Assembly (NCBI GenBank): GCA_014378225.1
Contig: JACMOA010000372.1
Location: 1-5,672 of the forward strand
Length of the DNA stretch: 5,672 bases
Origin: Deinococcales bacterium
Lineage (GTDB): Bacteria > Deinococcota > Deinococci > Deinococcales > Deinococcaceae
Direction: 5' to 3'
Shown here: positions 1 to 5,672 of the stretch, piece after piece
Position numbering within the stretch: the first letter of the stretch is position 1
How the letters are laid out: the number at the start of each line of letters is the position of its first letter
Notes under the pieces: generated by a model
Databases searched by the model: none
Told to the model about the DNA's origin: nothing
The model's input: only the letters and a program-made list of their open reading frames with translations
Position numbers and translations under genes: made by a program

Positions 1-293
1 AACGGGGCAGCGTCCGAGTGCTCAAGGCTAGCCGCTAGCCCCTCCAACGGCGCTCGAGTTCCCGTGAGATAAAGTTTCCCAGGATGAGGCGCAGTGGGAA
101 TCTGCAAATCGTCCTCTTCGGGTGCAAACTCGAGCAGGGTGTCTTCGGGATTCATGGTTTGTTTGGGGTCCAGCTCGAGAGTGGGCGTTTCCGGCTGCAT
201 TCCCGCTTTTAGAGCGCTCGAGGCACTTGGACTGGTGGGCAGAGCCTGACCAGAAGGCGATCTGTTCTCAGGTTTATTGTCAGAATCACTCAT
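1..293 (-). CDS. Unrecognised protein, N-terminal 97 residues (runs off left edge)
   Basis: The frame is open without a stop from an ATG at 293 to the left edge. It starts three bases after the stop of the zinc-ribbon/FHA gene and lies in the same frame, so the two are probably co-transcribed and translationally coupled. GGTGGA seven bases before the ATG may act as a weak ribosome site; it lies inside the end of the upstream gene. The visible residues form no domain I recognise. Residues 1-40 are rich in Ser, Pro and Ala. Residues 50-62 are acidic (PEDTLLEFAPEED), with Thr46 and Thr52 just before or within the acidic stretch. Residues 72-90 look more ordered. There is no signal peptide or membrane segment. 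Four CTCGAG copies (53, 129, 174, 217) fall in it, as in the linker of its neighbour. A phospho-signalling role is only a guess from context. The fragment could also be a disordered leader of a larger protein whose domains lie outside the window. Confidence 0.7.
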   Translation of the reverse strand, partial: MSDSDNKPENRSPSGQALPTSPSASSALKAGMQPETPTLELDPKQTMNPEDTLLEFAPEEDDLQIPTAPHPGKLYLTGTRAPLEGLAASLEHSDAAP

Positions 294-296
294 TGC

Positions 297-1367
297 TCAA
301 TCCACCATAAAAACGAGGACCATATTTCCGAAGGCGATTTCGTCGCCCGCACCTAGTGGCATAGGTGTTTGCAGACGGGGCGAAAACCCTGCTTCGGCGG
401 CCTTTTTAACGAACACTCCGTTGGTGGACCCCAGGTCACGCACCTTCCAGACGCCGTCCTCAAAGTAAATTTCGGCGTGGCGGCGCGAAATGTGCTCGGC
501 TCCGGGAAGGCTCGAGACGTCCAGTTCCACGGGTCCGGTGGAGGGGTCAAAGCGGCCTACCACTAGGTTTGTTCCCATCAGTGGCAAAGTTTCTCCGGTG
601 AGTGCGCCAAACTTCTTGACTCCAAGCTTTGCCGGAGTAGGCGTGCTAGAACTTGCAGCGCTCGAGTCAGGTGTGCTAGCGGACATGTCCGCTGGGACCG
701 GGATAATAGGCAATACGGGCGCGGCCTGCTCGAGGGTAGCGCTTGAAACCGGAGCGTCTGGCATCTCGCCCCCCATGCTCGAGGGTTGCGTCTTGGACAG
801 AACGGCACTTTCCGGGCCTGTTCGCGCTGTGGGGTCAACGTCCTGGGCCGGAACGGGTTCGGATTGCACGCTCGAGACGGTTCCAGTAGCGGCGGCCTCG
901 CTCATGGCTTCTTTGACGACCTCCGGCTCCACTACAGCAGGCTCGAGCGGAGGAGTTTCCAAAACAGGGGCCTCGAGCGGGGGCATCTCGAGCGGGGGCA
1001 TCTCGAGCGGGGTGTTCACCGTGGCCTCTGAAGGCGTTGGGTTGATGCTCGAGTCGGTGAGGGGTTCATTCACCACCGCACTTTCTGTAGCCGCCGGAAC
1101 CGCCGCCATGATGGGTTCTTCCACCATCGCCGCCACCTTGCCGCCCACCGACTCCACAGGGGTCTGGGTTGCACTCTCGAGCACATCTGCTGTGGCAGGA
1201 GCGCTCGAGGGTTCACTCGAGGCCGGAGTGGCCGGGTCCGAGGCATAAGGCACAGTAGCCGGAGCAGCAGCCACCGCAGGCGTGCTCTTTTTGAGTTCTA
1301 CACCGCAGTTTTCGCAATATTGAAGTCCATCAGGGTTTACATGTCCACACACGTCGCAGGTCATCAT
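297..1367 (-). CDS. Zinc-ribbon and FHA-domain protein with long Pro/Ala/Ser/Glu linker
   Basis: This is a cytoplasmic protein of 356 residues in three parts. Residues 4-22 are a four-cysteine zinc ribbon: CxxC at Cys4/Cys7 and CxxC at Cys18/Cys21. Residues 26-247 are a low-complexity linker rich in Pro, Ala, Ser, Thr and Glu, with five 5-residue repeats of PLEMP type at about 120-144. Residues 248-356 form an FHA domain, a fold that binds phosphothreonine peptides. It shows the expected GR (271-272), SRRHA (294-298) and GSTNG (313-317); Arg272, Ser294, Arg295 and Asn316 are the likely phosphate and peptide contacts. The FHA fold ends close to the stop, so the gene looks complete. Adjacent ATGs at 1367 and 1364 follow AAGGAGG with 5 or 8 bases of spacing, and either could be used. 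It lies beyond the transporter terminator, so it needs its own promoter. The partner Ser/Thr kinase or phosphatase is not visible. The domain calls are secure, the cellular role is not. Confidence 0.93.
   Translation of the reverse strand: MMTCDVCGHVNPDGLQYCENCGVELKKSTPAVAAAPATVPYASDPATPASSEPSSAPATADVLESATQTPVESVGGKVAAMVEEPIMAAVPAATESAVVNEPLTDSSINPTPSEATVNTPLEMPPLEMPPLEAPVLETPPLEPAVVEPEVVKEAMSEAAATGTVSSVQSEPVPAQDVDPTARTGPESAVLSKTQPSSMGGEMPDAPVSSATLEQAAPVLPIIPVPADMSASTPDSSAASSSTPTPAKLGVKKFGALTGETLPLMGTNLVVGRFDPSTGPVELDVSSLPGAEHISRRHAEIYFEDGVWKVRDLGSTNGVFVKKAAEAGFSPRLQTPMPLGAGDEIAFGNMVLVFMVD
936..1010 (-). repeat. Five-unit 15-bp repeat encoding PLEMP-type pentapeptides in the FHA-protein linker
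   Basis: Five in-frame 15-bp units encode, in order, PLEMP, PLEMP, PLEAP, VLETP and PLEPA. Units 1 and 2 (996-1010, 981-995) are identical at the DNA level. Four of the five carry CTCGAG as the Leu-Glu codons (1002, 987, 972, 942). The fourth unit has TTGGAA instead at 957-962. The near identity of the first units suggests recent tandem duplication. Confidence 0.85.
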
Positions 1368-1372
1368 GTCTG

Positions 1373-1379
1373 CCTCCTT
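1373..1379 (-). promoter_or_regulatory. Ribosome binding site of the FHA gene
   Basis: AAGGAGG on the minus strand is a near-perfect Shine-Dalgarno sequence. It lies 5 bases before the ATG at 1367 and 8 before the second ATG at 1364. It supports a start at this point but cannot choose between the two codons. Confidence 0.8.
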
Positions 1380-1415
1380 GAAATCGTTCCTCGTTCTGTT
1401 CTTCTAGAATACGTC

Positions 1416-1444
1416 AGTTTACCCACAAGGTTGCAGCAAGTCAG
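1416..1444 (-). promoter_or_regulatory. Candidate promoter of the FHA gene
   Basis: The minus strand reads CTGACT (1439-1444), a 17-base spacer, then TAAACT (1416-1421). Each hexamer matches four of six bases of the sigma-70-type consensus. The position, between the transporter terminator and the FHA ribosome site, is where a promoter is required. The match itself is weak and could be chance. Confidence 0.3.
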
Positions 1445-1495
1445 GCTTAATCCAGCCTTTTCCAACTTGCTCGAGCACAAAACCACCCCAAACCC

Positions 1496-1534
1496 AAAAA
1501 GAGGCCCTCGAGCACAAACTCGAGGGCCTCTTTT
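1496..1534 (-). terminator. Rho-independent terminator of the transporter operon
   Basis: A perfect 16-bp inverted repeat (arms 1497-1512 and 1519-1534) encloses a 6-base loop, TTTGTG on the minus strand. The arms hold a GC-rich core, GAGGCCCTCGAG, and the outer bases are an A/T run. On the minus strand the hairpin is followed by a run of five T (1500-1496), the classic terminator layout. It starts 35 bases after the stop of the last ATPase gene. The outer T run on the other strand means it could work in both directions, but no plus-strand gene approaches it. Each arm contains one CTCGAG palindrome (1507 and 1519), an unusual design. Confidence 0.9.
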
Positions 1535-1568
1535 CAACTCAAAACTCAAAACCCATCACTCAAAATCT

Positions 1569-2596
1569 CTACAAAACATCATCCCGAATACACGCCTTAA
1601 AGTGTCCTGGTGCAACCTCTCGCAGCTCGGGAATCACTTTTGCACAGTCCTCGAGCGCGTAACGGCAGCGAGTCCGAAACACACAGCCAGAAGGCGGATT
1701 TATGGGGCTGGGAATATCGCCCTGCAAGATAATGCGGTCTCGCTTGACGGTAGGGTCCGCAATCGGGGCCGCACTCAGCAGCGCCTCGGTATAGGGGTGC
1801 TTGGGGTTGAGGTACAGCTCCTTTGCCGGGGCCACCTCCATGATGCGGCCCAGATACATCACAATCACCCGGTCACACAGGTACTCAACCACGCTCAGGT
1901 CGTGGGCAATGAACAACATGGTCAGGCCCATTTCCTGCTGCAAATCCTGAATCAGGTTGACCACTTGCGCCTGAATGCTCACGTCCAGCGCCGAAACAGG
2001 TTCGTCAGCCACGATAAAGCTGGGGTCCACCGCGAGTGCGCGTGCGATGCCAATACGCTGCCGCTGTCCACCAGAAAACTCGTGCGGATAGCGCCGCATG
2101 GACTCGGGGCGCAGTCCCACCTTCTCGAGCAGTTGCCCGATGCGCTCGGTTTTAGCGTTGCCATGCGCCAGATTGTGAATGGTCAGCGCCTCACCAATGA
2201 TGTCCGAAACGGTCATGCGGGGGTTTAGAGACGCAAAGGGGTCTTGAAAGATAATCTGCATCTGACGGCGATACTTACGCATGTCATTTTTGTTTAACTT
2301 AATGACATCCACGCCCTCGAACTTGACTTCCCCGCTCGAGGGTTCAATCAATCTCAAAAGCGAACGGCCCACAGTGGTTTTTCCGGAGCCAGATTCGCCC
2401 ACCAGCCCCACCACTTCACCTTTGGCCACGGTAAAGGAAACATCGTCCACTGCCTTGACGTTGGCGACCACCCGGCTCAGCAGTCCGCCCCGAATGGGAA
2501 AGAACTTTTGTAGGTGGTTGACCTCGAGCATGACGCTGCCCTTTTCTCGAGCGCGGCTTTTTTCTAATGTGGTCTGTACAGGGTTAGAAGGAGCGG

Positions 2597-2600
<4 letters not shown>
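1569..2600 (-). CDS. oppF: Peptide-type ABC importer ATP-binding protein, OppF/DppF type
   Basis: This is a cytoplasmic ATPase subunit, 343 residues from the chosen start, that pairs with the preceding ATPase to drive uptake through the two permeases. Visible motifs in order: Walker A GESGSGKT (68-75), Q-loop Gln119 in [15 protein letters not shown] signature FSGGQ (175-179), Walker B FIVADE (195-200) and the switch His233 in FIAHD. The C-terminal oligopeptide/dipeptide extension has the KHPYTEALL motif (267-275) and four cysteines (306, 312, 319, 337) spaced as in family members that carry an Fe-S cluster. The ATG at 2600 overlaps the TGA of the upstream ATPase gene (ATGA), which points to translational coupling and decided the start; the frame is open up to 2693. 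A later start at 2534 (MLEVNHL) is possible and would remove a non-conserved leader. It is the last gene before the terminator. The symbol marks subunit type only; Dpp or another substrate is equally possible. Confidence 0.93.
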
Positions 2601-3637
<1,037 letters not shown>

Positions 3638-3641
3638 CCTT

Positions 3642-3648
3642 CTCCTTT
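3642..3648 (-). promoter_or_regulatory. Ribosome binding site deciding the OppD-type start
   Basis: AAAGGAG on the minus strand lies four bases before the ATG at 3637. The alternative upstream ATG at 3667 has no such site and would add a short charged tail, so 3637 is taken as the start. Confidence 0.75.
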
Positions 3649-3655
3649 GCTCAAG

Positions 3656-3689
3656 CCGCTCGAGCACCCCATAAAAGTGGCTCGAGCGG
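3656..3689 (-). repeat. Inverted repeat (hairpin) in the leader of the OppD-type gene
   Basis: The 10-base arms CCGCTCGAGC (3656-3665) and GCTCGAGCGG (3680-3689) are exact reverse complements around a 14-base loop. Each arm contains CTCGAG, so six to eight of the paired bases follow from the palindrome itself. In the minus-strand mRNA the hairpin would end about 8 bases before the ribosome site. No T run follows it on the minus strand, so it is not a terminator in the direction of the operon. A role in translation or mRNA stability is conceivable but unproven. Confidence 0.55.
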
Positions 3690-3704
3690 GCTTTTAGAAC
3701 CTGT

Positions 3705-3713
3705 ATCTTAGCA
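3705..3713 (-). promoter_or_regulatory. Possible extended -10 promoter element for the ATPase genes
   Basis: The minus strand reads TGCTAAGAT, an extended -10 pattern (TGn followed by TAAGAT, four of six consensus bases). I see no acceptable -35 box at the right distance. It lies in the 164-bp spacer, about 70 bases before the OppD-type ATG, and would let the ATPase genes be transcribed apart from the permeases. Weak evidence. Confidence 0.22.
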
Positions 3714-3760
3714 TACCCAAATTCATGCGTGGCTCGAGGTTTGCGGGTTTTTGGAACGGG

Positions 3761-3805
3761 TTTCTCGAGGCATTATTTCTCGAGGACTTGATGCTCGAGG
3801 GTTAT
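3761..3805. repeat. Three-unit 15-bp tandem array around CTCGAG in the permease-ATPase spacer
   Basis: Three consecutive 15-bp units begin at 3761, 3776 and 3791, each with CTCGAG at the same place (3764, 3779, 3794). Units 1 and 2 share TTTCTCGAGG exactly; unit 3 reads ATGCTCGAGG. The last five to six bases of each unit differ. The array starts in the spacer and its third unit reaches the stop codon of the OppC-type gene (3802-3804). A fourth copy at 3733 is 31 bases from the first. Confidence 0.75.
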
Positions 3806-4953
3806 TGTCTACGGCGCGGGTCGAAAGCGTCGCGCAGGCCGTCGCCTACAAACTGCCACGCCAGTACCGTGATGGTAATCATAAATCCCGGAATCAGGGT
3901 CCAGGGCCGCGCCGTGATGGACTCAAAACCTGCCGCGTAAGTCTGACTGAGCATATTTCCCCAGGAAGAGTAGGGTTCGGTGATGCCTACCCCAATAAAG
4001 GACAGCGCACTTTCCTCGAGAATGTAGCCAGGAATCAGCAAACTTCCCACCACGATGATGAAACTGGCGGTGTTGGGCAGCAGGTGTTGCCCAATGATGC
4101 GTGAATCGCTTGCGCCTAGTGCCCTTGCAGCCTGCACATAGTCCTGCTCTTTAGCACTCATCAGTTGGCTCCGCACCACTCGAGCAATTCCACCCCAGCC
4201 AATGGTCGCCAGAATTCCGGTAATAATGAAGAAAATCAGGACGGGATTAATGTCTATGGGGAACAGTGCTCTCAGGGTGAGCAGTAAAAAAAGACCAGGA
4301 ATGCTGGAGAGCACCTCTACAATTCGCATAATCAGAGTATCCAGCCAGCCCCCGAAGTATCCGGCAATCCCGCCCATGACCATCCCCAAAGCGATGGTAA
4401 GCAAAGCTGCGATGACCCCAATAGAGAGACTGATTTGGCTGCCATACATCAGGCGGCTGAAGTTATCCCGTCCAAAGTTGTCGGTTCCCAGCAAATAGAT
4501 TTTGGCGGGTTCACTCACCGTAAAGAGATGCACATCCGTGGGCAGGAGGCCCAAAAAGCGGTAAGGCGTTTCTGAACGGCGGGAAAAGAACTCAAGGTAG
4601 CTTTTCTGAGTTTTATCCTCGGTGTATTCGTCGCGGAAAGTTTCCAGATTCTGCTTGCGCGTCACTGCATACACAAAGGGTCTCGAGAAATTTCCCTGTT
4701 CATCTGCCCAGTGAATCTTACTGGGGGGCGCCCAGCTCACCCGGTTTTCGGTGGAGTATTCGGTGAGGCCATACGGAGCAATGATTTGAGCGAACAGGGC
4801 CATAACAAACAAAATGCCCAGAATCCACACGCCAAACCGGGCCAGGGAATGTTTACGGAACTGAATCCAGACCACCTGCCACTGGGACAGGGAGTCTTTG
4901 GAAACTTTACGCTTATCAATTTTAACTTTGGGGGGGGTTGCAGCTTGGCTCAT
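3802..4953 (-). CDS. oppC: Peptide-type ABC importer permease, OppC/DppC type
   Basis: This is an inner-membrane channel subunit of 383 residues that pairs with the OppB-type permease. A cytoplasmic N-terminus leads to the first membrane helix at about 41-60. The family landmark LGTDNFGRDNFSRLMYG lies at 155-171, followed by five more hydrophobic segments. The EAA motif, which docks to the ATPase, is at about 270-294 (DYVQAARALG, with Gly280). The end GDGLRDAFDPRRR (370-382) is the usual family C-terminus. The region between helix 1 and LGTD (about 62-154) is longer and more charged than in the common near-300-residue members, implying an enlarged outer loop. The ATG at 4953 is chosen because GAGGA lies seven bases before it; the frame is open up to 5025, but that extension has no family character. 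A run of eight C (4930-4937 on the complement) falls at codons 6-8. Confidence 0.93.
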   Translation of the reverse strand: MSQAATPPKVKIDKRKVSKDSLSQWQVVWIQFRKHSLARFGVWILGILFVMALFAQIIAPYGLTEYSTENRVSWAPPSKIHWADEQGNFSRPFVYAVTRKQNLETFRDEYTEDKTQKSYLEFFSRRSETPYRFLGLLPTDVHLFTVSEPAKIYLLGTDNFGRDNFSRLMYGSQISLSIGVIAALLTIALGMVMGGIAGYFGGWLDTLIMRIVEVLSSIPGLFLLLTLRALFPIDINPVLIFFIITGILATIGWGGIARVVRSQLMSAKEQDYVQAARALGASDSRIIGQHLLPNTASFIIVVGSLLIPGYILEESALSFIGVGITEPYSSWGNMLSQTYAAGFESITARPWTLIPGFMITITVLAWQFVGDGLRDAFDPRRRQ

Positions 4954-4960
4954 GATGGTT

Positions 4961-4965
4961 TCCTC
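4961..4965 (-). promoter_or_regulatory. Ribosome binding site deciding the OppC-type start
   Basis: GAGGA on the minus strand lies seven bases before the ATG at 4953. It favours this start over the in-frame ATG at 5025, which would add 24 residues of unlikely sequence. The 82-bp spacer between the two permease genes holds no CTCGAG copy and no clear hairpin or promoter. Confidence 0.6.
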
Positions 4966-5035
4966 GGATGTGCGGGTGTTACGTATTGCACAGCTCATTG
5001 CATAGCTAAGGCACACGTCGCGCACCCAAGAGTTC

Positions 5036-5672
5036 TCAGTTGTAACGAATACGGGGGTCTACGACAGCCAGCAGGATGTCCGAGATGATGTTGCCGACAA
5101 TATAGAGTATCACGGACAATGCAGCCACCGAAACAAAGATATAAAGGTCCTTGGTGGACAGAACCTCGAGCAGTTTAGGAGTCAGTCCAGGCCAGCCGTA
5201 GGTTACTTCTACAAATCCTGCTCCTGAAATTACACCTGGAAGTAAACCTCCGATGCCTGCAACCAAAGGAAGCACCGCGTTGCGAAAAGCGTGCTTGTAA
5301 ACCATCTTAGTTTGATTCAGCCCTTTGGCTTTGGCGGTGCGGATATAGTCTTGACTCAGCACCTCGAGCATCTGACCCCGGATAAAGCGGCTTTCGGAGC
5401 TGATGGAGCGCAGGGCAATCACAATGGCTGGGGGAAGTGCAAAAATGAACACATCAAGGATGTAGCGCCATCCCTCGGTGAAGTTGCCACTGCTTTTTCC
5501 ACTGATTGGCACATCCCAACCATAGTTCTGGCGCAATGTGACCATCAAAAACATCACGAGAAGCATAAAAAAGAAAGAAGGAATACCCAGGCCAAAGTAG
5601 GACAGGATGGAAAACACCCGGTCTGGGAAGCTGTAGGGGCGCAGGGCCGCAAACACGCCCAGCGGAATGCCT
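5036..5672 (-). CDS. oppB: Peptide-type ABC importer permease, OppB/DppB type (5' end missing)
   Basis: The C-terminal 211 residues of an inner-membrane permease are visible and the start lies beyond the right edge. The GTG at 5656 is internal: upstream codons continue as GIPLGV, part of the typical IPLGVxAAL stretch of the family, so no start should be called there. Seen in order: IPLGVFAALRP, hydrophobic helices, a polar outer loop with GWDVPISGK, then the EAA loop DYIRTAKAKGLNQTKMVYKH (5289-5348), which contacts the ATPase. The end is DILLAVVDPRIRYN, typical of OppB/DppB proteins; family members run to about 300-340 residues, so roughly a third is missing. The OppC-type gene follows after 82 bp, the usual B-C-D-F order. 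Two Leu-Glu pairs, both in the context LEVLS, are encoded by CTCGAG (5165, 5363). Confidence 0.93.
   Translation of the reverse strand, partial: GIPLGVFAALRPYSFPDRVFSILSYFGLGIPSFFFMLLVMFLMVTLRQNYGWDVPISGKSSGNFTEGWRYILDVFIFALPPAIVIALRSISSESRFIRGQMLEVLSQDYIRTAKAKGLNQTKMVYKHAFRNAVLPLVAGIGGLLPGVISGAGFVEVTYGWPGLTPKLLEVLSTKDLYIFVSVAALSVILYIVGNIISDILLAVVDPRIRYN

Follow-up and report, generated by a model that had tools for sequence, protein, structure and literature searches.

CTCGAG as a highly iterated palindrome in Deinococcales genomes

Introduction

The highly iterated palindrome (HIP) HIP1 of cyanobacteria (GCGATCGC) and the alternative HIPs are short palindromes in gross excess throughout the genome, in genes and spacers alike, and the alternative HIPs accompany a methyltransferase of their specificity (Elhai 2015, PMC4390886). 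The 8-mer HIP1 occurs at 0.3 to 2.7 copies per kb in the part of that article available to us, and the alternatives at about 0.5 to 2.5, rCCGGy being higher. Here, we study a stretch of 5,672 bp from a Deinococcales bacterium (contig JACMOA010000372.1 of assembly GCA_014378225.1), hereafter called the window, in which a first-pass annotation had noticed forty copies of the 6-bp palindrome CTCGAG and proposed a genome-wide HIP-like element.

CTCGAG behaves as a HIP in another phylum. It is found in gross excess, it occupies genes and spacers without forming part of any longer repeat, and it is common to relatives, with losses. As far as the available part of the cyanobacterial study goes, the likeness includes an extended preference for flanking bases in certain lineages, losses among relatives, and the keeping of density rather than position. 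Phylum and sequence are different, and CTCGAG, a 6-mer present at 5.9 to 7.6 per kb, is denser than any HIP1 count in that part of the article (PMC4390886), although the words compared differ in length. Also unlike what is given there for HIP1 and the alternative HIPs, CTCGAG goes with a doubling of Leu-Glu pairs, and no cognate methyltransferase was found in the genomes where its excess is strongest. No CTCGAG iterated palindrome was met in literature titles and abstract openings, a partial coverage that does not establish its absence in print. How HIP1 arose and what it does are long-standing questions, and CTCGAG provides an independent example from a phylum some of whose members can be cultured.

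Results and Discussion

Genome-wide excess of CTCGAG

The genome that contains the window (G000; 1,936,785 bases in 396 contigs, 58.93% complete) holds 14,690 copies of CTCGAG and 2 of GAGCTC, the reversal of equal composition that served as the control. Among the 6-bp palindromes of a sample made up of the window and 20 contigs (103,645 bases, of which 96,246 were read as letters and the others as N), CTCGAG ranked first, with an observed/expected ratio (O/E) of 29.9 by base composition, while the next palindromes reached 2.6. When the expectation came from an order-2 Markov model whose training masked the CTCGAG sites, the kind of count that the first-pass annotation had proposed, the O/E rose to 81. 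The existence of CTCGAG as an iterated element in this genome is beyond doubt. The two outcomes named beforehand as telling against it, a genome-wide count near expectation and a similar excess of other 6-mers, were not what we found, and the proposed HIP-like element was borne out by 14,690 copies in 1.94 Mb, by the recurrence of the excess in related genomes and by its action on DNA.

In the window, 40 exact copies lie between positions 53 and 5368, whereas 200 dinucleotide shuffles gave a mean of 1.26 and a maximum of 5, in agreement with the one or two copies first taken as expected. The runner-up 6-bp palindromes were AGCGCT (4 copies), AAATTT (3) and GCTAGC (3), and 40 of the 44 TCGA tetramers fell inside CTCGAG. 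The copies were distributed among frame 0, where the hexamer encodes Leu-Glu (17), frame 1 (4), frame 2 (10) and spacers (9), as the claim of sites in all three frames and in spacers had held. The resulting density (7.05 per kb) is close to that of the genome, so the window is typical of it and not a local oddity. The sites are as follows (ORF, open reading frame).

CTCGAG, 53..58, strand., frame 1, ORF 3-293
CTCGAG, 129..134, strand., frame 0 (Leu-Glu), ORF 3-293
CTCGAG, 174..179, strand., frame 0 (Leu-Glu), ORF 3-293
CTCGAG, 217..222, strand., frame 2, ORF 3-293
CTCGAG, 511..516, strand., frame 2, ORF 297-1367
CTCGAG, 661..666, strand., frame 2, ORF 297-1367
CTCGAG, 729..734, strand., frame 0 (Leu-Glu), ORF 297-1367
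CTCGAG, 778..783, strand., frame 2, ORF 297-1367
CTCGAG, 871..876, strand., frame 2, ORF 297-1367
CTCGAG, 942..947, strand., frame 0 (Leu-Glu), ORF 297-1367
CTCGAG, 972..977, strand., frame 0 (Leu-Glu), ORF 297-1367
CTCGAG, 987..992, strand., frame 0 (Leu-Glu), ORF 297-1367
CTCGAG, 1002..1007, strand., frame 0 (Leu-Glu), ORF 297-1367
CTCGAG, 1048..1053, strand., frame 2, ORF 297-1367
CTCGAG, 1176..1181, strand., frame 0 (Leu-Glu), ORF 297-1367
CTCGAG, 1204..1209, strand., frame 2, ORF 297-1367
CTCGAG, 1216..1221, strand., frame 2, ORF 297-1367
CTCGAG, 1470..1475, strand., spacer
CTCGAG, 1507..1512, strand., spacer, left arm of hairpin 1497-1534
CTCGAG, 1519..1524, strand., spacer, right arm of hairpin 1497-1534
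CTCGAG, 1650..1655, strand., frame 0 (Leu-Glu), ORF 1569-2600
CTCGAG, 2124..2129, strand., frame 0 (Leu-Glu), ORF 1569-2600
CTCGAG, 2335..2340, strand., frame 2, ORF 1569-2600
CTCGAG, 2523..2528, strand., frame 0 (Leu-Glu), ORF 1569-2600
CTCGAG, 2546..2551, strand., frame 1, ORF 1569-2600
CTCGAG, 2666..2671, strand., frame 0 (Leu-Glu), ORF 2597-3637
CTCGAG, 2777..2782, strand., frame 0 (Leu-Glu), ORF 2597-3637
CTCGAG, 3191..3196, strand., frame 0 (Leu-Glu), ORF 2597-3637
CTCGAG, 3379..3384, strand., frame 1, ORF 2597-3637
CTCGAG, 3659..3664, strand., spacer
CTCGAG, 3681..3686, strand., spacer
CTCGAG, 3733..3738, strand., spacer
CTCGAG, 3764..3769, strand., spacer
CTCGAG, 3779..3784, strand., spacer
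CTCGAG, 3794..3799, strand., spacer
CTCGAG, 4015..4020, strand., frame 0 (Leu-Glu), ORF 3802-4953
CTCGAG, 4179..4184, strand., frame 1, ORF 3802-4953
CTCGAG, 4682..4687, strand., frame 2, ORF 3802-4953
CTCGAG, 5165..5170, strand., frame 0 (Leu-Glu), ORF 5036-5671
CTCGAG, 5363..5368, strand., frame 0 (Leu-Glu), ORF 5036-5671

Six of the spacer copies share a single spacer of 164 bp (3638-3801). The hairpin at 1497-1534, with one CTCGAG per arm, is terminator-like and lies between an FHA-type gene and a transporter operon.

Distribution across the phylum

A set of 111 genomes of the phylum was used for comparison, and those with a CTCGAG:GAGCTC ratio above 100 were called strong. Six genomes qualified: G000, G001 (JANYFS; same genus as G000), G007 (JAAFIG), G011 (JAAFJQ), G015 and G019 (JANXTZ), of which G001, G007, G011 and G019 are Deinococcales bacterium metagenome-assembled genomes. 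These six assemblies span two families, covered by the handles f1 and f5, with 8 genomes in the set. Densities, computed for the relatives with rounded genome sizes, were 7.6 per kb in G000 and 5.9 to 6.5 in the other five, and the O/E by base composition in samples was 22 to 32. The G+C content of the samples ranged from 0.45 to 0.61, and the density in strong genomes is independent of it (about 5.9 to 7.6 per kb at 45 to 61%). The 4-bp palindromes that are avoided vary among strong genomes: GATC had an O/E of 0.05 in G000, CCGG of 0.06 in G001, and GGCC of 0.00 to 0.01 in the samples of G007, G011 and G019.

Within the family of G000, G002 was intermediate (sample O/E of 12) and G003 showed no CTCGAG excess (sample O/E of 0.9). 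A weaker excess was observed in some Thermaceae, Marinithermus-type and Trueperaceae genomes, each sampled as two 20-kb stretches. G025 (taken as Meiothermus ruber), G075, G005 and G070 had O/E values of 8.6 to 10.2, with CTCGAG first among palindromes, G047 had a value of 4.2, and G041, G052 and G055 had values of 1.2 to 1.8. G070 and G062 matched Trueperaceae records at 100%.

Action at the DNA level

ORFs were chosen mechanically (at least 120 amino acids), and the figures for genes, spacers and Leu-Glu are estimates from samples. The densities of CTCGAG per kb in genes and spacers, respectively, were 8.83 and 8.37 in G000, 7.17 and 8.85 in G001, 6.06 and 6.74 in G007, 6.13 and 5.79 in G011, 6.82 and 9.89 in G015, and 6.49 and 8.12 in G019, and the hexamer was enriched in reading frames 0, 1 and 2 of strong genomes. 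Neither codon choice nor protein choice is the cause, since the density in spacers is similar to that in genes and the enrichment extends to frames 1 and 2. A codon-pair or protein preference for Leu-Glu, with which frame 0 as the commonest class would agree, is on these grounds extremely improbable, and so is an assembly or library artefact, given that six assemblies from two families share the pattern.

The effect on proteins was substantial. Leu-Glu was spelled CTCGAG in 436 of 528 cases in G000 (6.7% expected by codon use), 280 of 333 in G001 (3.3%), 243 of 347 in G007 (1.7%), 129 of 179 in G011 (1.9%), 151 of 217 in G015 (10.4%) and 65 of 89 in G019 (5.3%), that is, 70 to 84% in the six strong genomes against an expected 2 to 10%. 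In contrast, G003 used it in only 11 of 133 (15.3% expected). Leu-Glu pairs were themselves 2.07 to 2.53 times more frequent than expected in the six strong genomes, whereas the values for Glu-Leu were 0.85 to 1.17 and that for Leu-Glu in G003 was 1.14. This spelling, together with the doubling of the pairs, indicates that the force changes amino acids, and it clearly illustrates how a force acting on DNA alters protein composition genome-wide.

As an explanation we tentatively favor, with somewhat less than even confidence, a DNA-level process, likely repair biased towards a predicted methylated CTCGAG, that creates and keeps the copies. A dyad-symmetric DNA-recognizing factor would read CTCGAG, with a flank preference differing by lineage, and this factor may be a CTCGAG DNA methyltransferase or have originated as one. 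Mismatch or recombinational repair would favor the marked strand, gains of CTCGAG being kept and losses reverted, and the process would run until the density is near one site per 130 to 170 bp. The surplus of Leu-Glu would be a by-product. In favor of such a process speak the excess itself, its similar level in genes, spacers and all frames, the convergence of six genomes on one range of density, the altered Leu-Glu content, the turnover of sites outside conserved Leu-Glu, a flank preference that differs by lineage but not by frame, the two putative CTCGAG methyltransferase types of the phylum and the precedent of the alternative HIPs.

CTCGAG on mobile and resident DNA

Methyltransferase genes are often mobile. 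The 49 methyltransferase loci of five strong genomes all contained CTCGAG, at averages of 4.2 to 5.6 per kb and a minimum of 2.2. In G099, two smaller contigs of plasmid size (C2 and C3) had 1.78 and 1.12 copies per kb compared with 2.33 in the chromosome sample, which suggests a gradual build-up on resident DNA over time. In a scan for CTCGAG-rich viral contigs, the matches listed were mostly GC-rich contigs.

Both the presence of sites in all 49 loci and the apparently gradual build-up in G099 would also be expected if CTCGAG were a self-mark for natural transformation, accumulating by transformation drive through preferred uptake or recombination. The DNA uptake sequences of Pasteurellaceae and Neisseriaceae are likewise short words spread genome-wide, and they too build up both within and between genes and change protein sequences. 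However, they are asymmetric, longer and rarer, while CTCGAG is a short palindrome at 6 to 8 per kb, and we consider this origin rather unlikely, though a serious rival to biased repair.

Turnover, spacing and flanks

In aligned DNA of the strong genomes and G002, CTCGAG was common to 110 of 200 sites, compared with 17.4% for other 4-GC hexamers. This positional conservation is not evidence for site-by-site selection, because the sharing rests on conserved Leu-Glu. In a codon alignment of three transporter genes, in which the counts are of ordered genome pairs and hence not independent, the site was kept in 80 of 94 comparisons with Leu-Glu conserved, but in 8 of 34 in other frames with identical residues and in 2 of 121 with different residues. 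Outside conserved Leu-Glu the sites turn over, and what the genome preserves is the density and the spelling of Leu-Glu, not individual sites. Sequences one base away from CTCGAG in G000 were mostly at 0.76 to 1.56 of expectation, TTCGAG (2.9) and CTTGAG (2.1) being in surplus, as decay of sites by transitions would give.

No regular spacing of CTCGAG was found, and the gaps were otherwise near random placement, with the exception that copies less than about 15 bp apart are scarce. Pairs at 6 to 14 bp numbered 16 in G000, 11 in G001 and 24 in four f5 genomes, where the level at 30 to 74 bp predicts about 69, 36 and 57, respectively; close pairs are hence 2.4 to 4.3 times rarer. Generic inverted repeats showed a mild deficit only. 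A role of close pairs as terminators was considered and rejected, with 4 of 86 pairs scored by the script's rule, a rule that missed the hairpin at 1497-1534.

The deficit at 6 to 14 bp exceeds that of generic inverted repeats and would fit a footprint of 15 to 18 bp, and density is kept regardless of G+C content while positions turn over. Both observations would suit an abundant dyad-symmetric DNA-binding protein acting in nucleoid organization, segregation or recombination, with site density held by selection and methylation uninvolved. For this explanation no candidate protein is known, the 15,000 to 28,000 sites per genome are very many for per-site selection, the gaps are otherwise near random, and avoidance of hairpins could equally account for the missing close pairs. 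We regard it as unlikely, if less so than the uptake explanation, and like that one as a serious rival.

The statement that the copies have no shared flanks needs qualification. The base after CTCGAG was C in 50% of the cases in the G000 sample, against 30% after other GAG (0.50 versus 0.30), and in G002 it was G (0.65 versus 0.32), with little preference in f5. This bias was alike in spacers and all frames in G000, G001 and G002. It was confined to about two bases, with no longer repeat. A lineage-specific preference that is alike in spacers and frames is as expected for a DNA-reading factor.

Search for the cognate factor

The families PF01555, PF02384, PF00145 and PF02086 were searched in 18 genomes (of the 101 then handled) and matched in 12, 16, 8 and 12 of them, respectively; none of the four was found in G000, which is only 59% complete. 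The 79 methyltransferases that were clustered comprised 30 of the 33 PF01555 rows, 29 of the 53 PF02384 rows (from 30 with loci, one second piece of a G002 protein being dropped) and 20 of the 24 PF00145 rows (4 second or weak pieces being dropped), with none for PF02086. The nearest to a shared methyltransferase was a cluster of PF00145 proteins from G001, G007 and G011. Each of the five Meiothermus-type genomes among the 18 had a PF01555 methyltransferase, at 69 to 79% identity.

The XhoI/PaeR7I restriction-modification systems have CTCGAG as their target. A PF01555 methyltransferase adjoins an XhoI-family nuclease in three genomes of genus g9 (G017, G042 and G048; loci L379, L380 and L381), and a stop-holding copy of the nuclease gene occurs in G008. 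In contrast, no such nuclease was detected in the strong genomes: the 4 genomes with PF04555, out of 111, include no strong genome and none of the 8 f1/f5 genomes, and on this ground the nuclease was rejected as the cause of the excess. The g9 genomes with the nuclease had 0.70 to 0.97 CTCGAG per kb (3 genomes) versus 1.65 to 1.97 in 3 others of similar completeness, phylogeny being uncontrolled.

A profile built from four PF01555 proteins of this type, including one that comes from Thermus G055 and has no nuclease with it, detected relatives in 32 of 111 genomes, including 22 of 27 in genus g6 (one copy with a stop); g6 is taken as Thermus through G055, 87% identical to a named Thermus. A second type, weakly like PglX models, adjoins the XhoI-like gene of G008 that contains a stop, and has homologs of at least 42% identity in G037, G025, G103, G077, G101, G014 and G094 (partial). 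Both types are putative CTCGAG methyltransferases, as read from the adjoining nuclease.

The proposed search for a methyltransferase thus yielded two putative CTCGAG types in the phylum, neither with a close homolog in the strong genomes, and a cognate enzyme for the excess is not supported so far. For repair biased towards methylated CTCGAG, this and several other results are unfavorable. No cluster at 45% identity or above covered the strong genomes among the 79 methyltransferases. The XhoI-linked PF01555 type, an orphan in Thermus, was in no f1 or f5 genome by profile search of the 111 genomes, and the G008 type gave in f1/f5 weak matches only (27% or short) or none. Presence of the orphan did not go with higher CTCGAG counts in Thermus (22 genomes with, 5 without; P = 0.88), and the association of the G008 type with counts in the Meiothermus-type genera was weak (6 with, 16 without; P = 0.04, with no phylogeny correction). 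One-off sequences showed no consistent depletion, which a conversion drive might leave; in f5, CTGGAG was at 0.66 and CCCGAG at 3.1 of expectation. Vsr, the endonuclease of very-short-patch repair, is a known methylation-linked repair enzyme, and of the 111 genomes only G002, G009, G026 and G048 gave a match to it (PF03852); no strong genome is among these four, G000 being incomplete. In the intermediate genome G002, a C5 methyltransferase gene and the Vsr gene adjoin (C11, 83962-85231).

A 5-methylcytosine motif CTCGAG is reported for Halorubrum BOL3-1 (PMC8112702), and another methyltransferase family could therefore carry the activity. The fuller account, in which a dyad-specific factor other than the known CTCGAG methyltransferases would have driven the HIP through two Deinococcales families, and weakly through the phylum, rewriting proteins, is put forward a little more hesitantly than biased repair itself. 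Meiothermus, which is culturable, carries a milder form of the excess, so that the factor, the need for methylation, and repair bias versus selection versus transformation become testable.

The Thermus pattern

In 11 named Thermus loci (L219-L225, L232-L234 and L237; 216 kb), TCGA outside CTCGAG had an O/E of 0.13 while CTCGAG had one of 2.27, and 90% of the flanking bases were G (CTCGAGG). There was no positional conservation in Thermus, CTCGAG being common in 420 of 1,105 cases (38%) versus 47% for comparable hexamers, and the XhoI nuclease was not found in genus g6. Leu-Glu was spelled CTCGAG in 111 of 628 cases (18%), below the 27.5% predicted by codon use, and Thermus therefore spares CTCGAG rather than accumulating it.

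Sparing of this kind might be extended to the strong genomes, CTCGAG being merely left by restriction while other palindromes are purged. Thermus does purge other TCGA, and many palindromes are depleted in strong genomes (GATC to 0.05 in G000, GGCC to 0.01 in f5). Nevertheless, sparing cannot yield an O/E of 22 to 32 or doubled Leu-Glu, it is contradicted by the absolute excess, and in Thermus, the clear case of sparing, Leu-Glu is spelled CTCGAG less often than codon use predicts; as a general explanation it is improbable. For biased repair towards a methylated site, the sparing of CTCGAG amid the purge of TCGA is as a protecting mark would give, and this purge in Thermus provides a second testable observation.

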